From Lachnospiraceae bacterium (lineage in GTDB: Bacteria; Bacillota; Clostridia; Lachnospirales; Lachnospiraceae), in assembly GCA_017467805.1 (NCBI GenBank), contig JAFUKJ010000037.1:1-32111 (forward strand): a stretch of 32,111 nt of DNA, read 5' to 3'. The notes below the pieces were generated by a model, which did not search any database, was not told the DNA's origin, and saw only the letters and a program-made list of their open reading frames with translations. The stretch's first letter is position 1, and every line of letters begins with the position of its first letter. This document shows, piece by piece, positions 25,037-26,122 of the stretch. The position numbers were made by a program, and so were the translations under genes.

Positions 25037-26122
<1,086 letters not shown>

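Follow-up and report, generated by a model that had tools for sequence, protein, structure and literature searches.

Genes interrupted at a single base are a familiar kind of feature in draft assemblies. Our literature searches found no paper on errors in metagenome assemblies and none on a ketol-acid reductoisomerase with an in-frame stop codon. The described enzyme closest to the locus reported here is ordinary ketol-acid reductoisomerase (IlvC; NF004017, TIGR00465; PDB 8upq and others), which the locus matches over its full length when read through and from which it differs by a single in-frame TGA at codon 248. The window, the whole stretch of 32,111 nucleotides that was analysed, is contig C26 of a draft Lachnospiraceae genome (G000; 2,994,647 bases in 121 contigs, 95.25% complete with 3.13% contamination). 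We consider that the TGA is probably a single-base error, or a minority or unfixed variant, taken into the draft consensus. The features concerned are:

25037..26062, minus strand: ilvC (ketol-acid reductoisomerase) frame, 341 codons plus terminal stop, with one interruption; KARI domains and equivalog matches
25319..26062, minus strand: upstream part of ilvC, 247 residues and the stop codon; covers KARI_N plus KARI_C positions 1-61
25319..25321, minus strand: in-frame TGA at ilvC codon 248, without counterpart in 109 of 109 related loci
25037..25318, minus strand: downstream part of ilvC, 93 residues from an internal Met; KARI_C positions 64-144
26144..26623, minus strand: acetolactate synthase small subunit, second copy; TIGR00119, no stop inside
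26688..27170, minus strand: acetolactate synthase small subunit, first copy; TIGR00119, no stop inside
27186..28874 (listed ORF; scanned over 27189-28799), minus strand: acetolactate synthase large subunit, ilvB; TIGR00118

The two small-subunit genes, both TIGR00119, form a tandem pair between ilvB and ilvC. An aldolase/isopropylmalate-synthase-like protein encoded at 2610-3599 (minus strand) falls below every NCBIfam cut-off and comes nearest to a 4-hydroxy-2-oxovalerate aldolase subfamily, at 123.7 bits against the 229 required.

In the sequence as given, codon 248 of ilvC is preceded by ...YQSGFA, the same frame continues on both sides, and the stop and an ATG touch at the junction GCATGAATG. 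The initial annotation had described a single TGA with an ATG directly after it, in one frame free of frameshifts or further stops, and this description stands: the minus-strand frame opens with the ATG at 26062 and closes with the terminal stop codon, whose last base is 25037, and a scan of its whole length found no second stop and no frameshift. Read with X at codon 248, the 341-residue protein matches KARI_N (17-180) and KARI_C (186-331), both present and in order, and scores above the curated cut-offs of the NCBIfam ilvC equivalogs NF004017, NF009940 and TIGR00465. It is not one uninterrupted chain, given the TGA at codon 248. Taken singly, the halves match KARI_C positions 1-61 (upstream) and 64-144 (downstream); thus the stop cuts the C-terminal domain. 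The search for a second ilvC that the initial annotation had proposed found none in G000, where this gene is the sole match to KARI_C and to the IlvC protein.

Codon 248 was compared across 109 related loci (29 genus genomes and 80 named contigs, with possible overlap between the two sets), in which it encodes glycine in 78 and another residue, by a sense codon, in 31, and is a stop in none. Glycine is therefore the usual residue in close relatives, as had been supposed, and the proposed one-base change from GGA to TGA suffices, since GGA is the codon in the nearest genome (G010), whose IlvC protein is 98.8% identical. The closest named ilvC relatives are mostly metagenome-assembled Clostridia, many of them Lachnospiraceae, the best being 93% identical. 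Matches were found in 34 of the 38 other genus genomes, and the best match in each is free of a stop; in the wider family (374 of 397 genomes matched), none besides G000 has an ilvC stop among the matches listed. Against this absence, a weak secondary ilvC match in G021 carries TAA. A copy of the junction, searched in IMG/VR as a pattern with N at the changed base, was not found there.

The ilvC stop has company in the same assembly. In this study, 60 stretches plus the window (61 sources, 1,028,256 bases, 34% of the assembly) were scanned for stops flanked in frame by coding-like sequence on both sides. Sixty-eight candidates resulted; comparison with genus relatives upheld ilvC and five more of them, giving six lone in-frame stops (TGA three times, TAG twice and TAA once). 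The pyrH gene on contig C102 has a lone TAG (L156:13175-13177, minus strand) at a position that is Lys in all 29 aligned relatives; a BPD_transp_2 permease has a TAG (Glu in 6/6 relatives), a DJ-1/PfpI protein a TAA (Leu in 5/5), an SH3-NlpC/P60 protein a TGA (Leu, Ile or Met in 29/29) and a HAD-type hydrolase a TGA (Gly in 17/19, Ala in 2/19). This pyrH is the single match in G000 and its read-through product reaches the UMP kinase equivalog. Among the 36 other genus genomes with a pyrH match, no stop interrupts the best match of any. Pointing the other way, a TAG occurs in a partial G021 pyrH stretch (residues 117-232), and the HAD matches of G033, G034 and G036, at 58% identity, contain stops.

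The remaining G000 candidates look like ordinary gene ends. A start signal follows the stop in 48 candidates from G000, 18 from G010 and 29 from the related draft G016; these were judged by eye, apart from one G016 row that was compared with Pfam and from ilvC and the HAD gene, which both belong to the 48. Candidates lacking a start signal (37 stretches from the three genomes) were compared with Pfam and, where Pfam matched at all, no further domain across a stop was seen in G000, stretches with no Pfam match being uninformative. A possible frameshift was also observed on contig C6 of G000 (L292:9902-10563, plus strand), where one G010 ORF matches in two frames.

Constraint was examined in five of the six genes (ilvC, pyrH, the permease, DJ-1/PfpI and SH3-NlpC). 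Apart from the stop, the ilvC genes of G000 and G010 differ by 27 synonymous and 3 non-synonymous changes, and with no second lesion that of G000 does not show the decay of a pseudogene; by this same simple count, pyrH has 56 synonymous and 3 non-synonymous differences, one of the latter three being a two-step Arg-codon change. Raw dN/dS is higher downstream of the stop in 5/5 genes tested. Leaving out 30 differences that could not be polarised, the G000 lineage has 10 amino-acid changes upstream of the stops (827 codons) and 10 downstream (625 codons), and the G010 lineage has 5 upstream and 12 downstream in the same genes (Fisher p 0.32). Relaxed selection after the stops was rejected, since the polarised counts hold no excess on the G000 lineage. 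The lack of decay after the stops suggests that they either arose very recently or are not real.

Base errors or unfixed variants offer the best explanation for lone stops of all three kinds, one of them in a pyrH expected to be indispensable, and we infer that the base at ilvC codon 248 is wrong. The population in nature would in that case make a normal IlvC of full length. The scatter of such stops over G000, with the only pyrH found among the genes hit, would fit an error, as would constraint before as well as after the stop in the five genes. The other pathway genes would fit as well: ilvB, both small-subunit genes, leuC and leuD are constrained and free of internal stops, and an ILVD_EDD family gene in G000 has none. 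Counting against an error is residue 236 of IlvC, which is Ile in G000 and Leu in 29/29 genus relatives, and which might reflect real drift. Relative to the closest relative, each of the six stop changes needs at least one transversion and one needs two base changes; the chance of no transition in six is ~0.48 without bias and ~0.08 with a fourfold bias (opportunity counts), so that this pattern weighs against base error only slightly. A uniform G-to-T damage signature behind the stops was considered and dropped, the changes being mixed. Also counting against an error, the essentiality of pyrH is taken from E. coli alone, where the gene is called essential (PMC6245113).

A further point against an error comes from the control genomes. 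In G016, 39 candidates were found in 347,238 bases, and in two of these a Pfam domain spans the stop: one is a LysR-type regulator with a lone TAG (L332:555-557, plus strand), the other an alpha/beta hydrolase with a lone TAG near the domain start (L336:7150-7152, plus strand). A third TAG, in a G016 permease match, lies in a stretch with a gene end and then a following start (L331:13897) and is probably that gene's own end. In G010, none of the 29 candidates in 370,534 bases was convincing, and no domain crosses the stop in the 11 that have no start signal. The density of lone stops is about 6 per Mb in G000 and the same in G016. The idea that G000 is richer in lone stops than its kin was thus not upheld, given the two in 347,238 bases of G016, and from the samples G000 cannot be shown to be a poorer assembly than those of its relatives. 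Lone stops are common in these draft genomes. The comparison of open reading frames between samples suffers from noise caused by antisense ORFs, and part of the G010 contigs had been picked for holding orthologues; for these reasons it yields no rate.

Since the density in G016 equals that in G000, real recent mutations could account for the stops in both just as well, and the reading that ranks a close second, which we regard as quite possible though on balance less likely than not, is that the TGA is a genuine and very recent nonsense mutation in a lineage now without IlvC that obtains its valine and isoleucine from the environment. Gut bacteria are able to live as auxotrophs. One substitution in the glycine codon that the closest relative has is all that is needed, no other ilvC was found in G000, and a mutation this young would leave the gene too little time for further decay. 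However, real loss poorly explains why the one pyrH detected in the assembly should carry a stop of this kind, the remainder of the pathway seen here is stop-free and constrained, and the stop has no counterpart in the best ilvC matches of the 34 other genus genomes. The initial annotation had offered a recent change, recoding or a sequencing error as the choices; the TGA in 0 of 109 loci speaks for the first and the last, and recoding is disfavoured by the release factors, SelB, the tRNAs and the fold, as set out below.

That the gene could work in two pieces, by the termination-reinitiation that the initial annotation suggested, is very improbable. Ribosomes would halt at the TGA and restart at the touching ATG, the chains of 247 and 93 residues would form a working reductoisomerase, and the C-terminal domain would be completed in trans by the 93-residue chain. 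The TGA does adjoin an ATG with AGG upstream, and both parts still match the ketol-acid reductoisomerase family. However, the ATG is an internal Met common to 108 of the 109 related loci and the flanking DNA resembles that of G010 and others with intact genes, so nothing appears to have evolved for restarting, and the adjacency of TGA and ATG is a by-product of where the change fell. The cut, moreover, lies inside KARI_C, and the arrangement occurs in no relative examined.

Reading of the TGA as an amino acid, whether by selenocysteine, a suppressor tRNA or a changed code, would suit a frame that is open apart from codon 248, but it is the least credible explanation, and close to negligible, on several counts: G000 has two RF-1 family genes, both open, one with an SPF motif and one with PET (which we take to mark RF2 and RF1, respectively); SelB falls below its cut-off (best TIGR00475 score 176.4 bits against 242.25), an absence that is not absolute in an assembly 95.25% complete; no UCA, CUA or UUA anticodon occurs at 28 tRNA matches (ARAGORN; an incomplete tRNA set); TGA terminates 160 of 872 coding-like frames in 735,086 bases of G000; the 63 nt starting at the TGA show no more stable folding than shuffled versions (z -0.43; 66 of 200 fold at least as well), leaving no stable hairpin just after it; and, with TAA and TAG interrupting other G000 genes too, no single recoding would explain the set. 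G000 thus has neither lost RF2 nor ceased to use TGA as a terminator.

A single-base error or unfixed variant therefore remains our preferred reading of the ilvC stop. At about 6 per Mb, some 17 seemingly broken genes would be present in G000 (extrapolated from 34% of the assembly). Thus, a lone in-frame stop in a draft genome should first be weighed against similar stops in the same and related assemblies, before it is taken as a sign of auxotrophy, recoding or a split gene. Compared with the interrupted genes of draft assemblies, the case differs in that error is here probable rather than proven from reads. In its other features it is alike: a lone stop in an otherwise intact and constrained gene, one of several scattered through the assembly and involving all three stop codons, with such stops present in the relative G016 as well.
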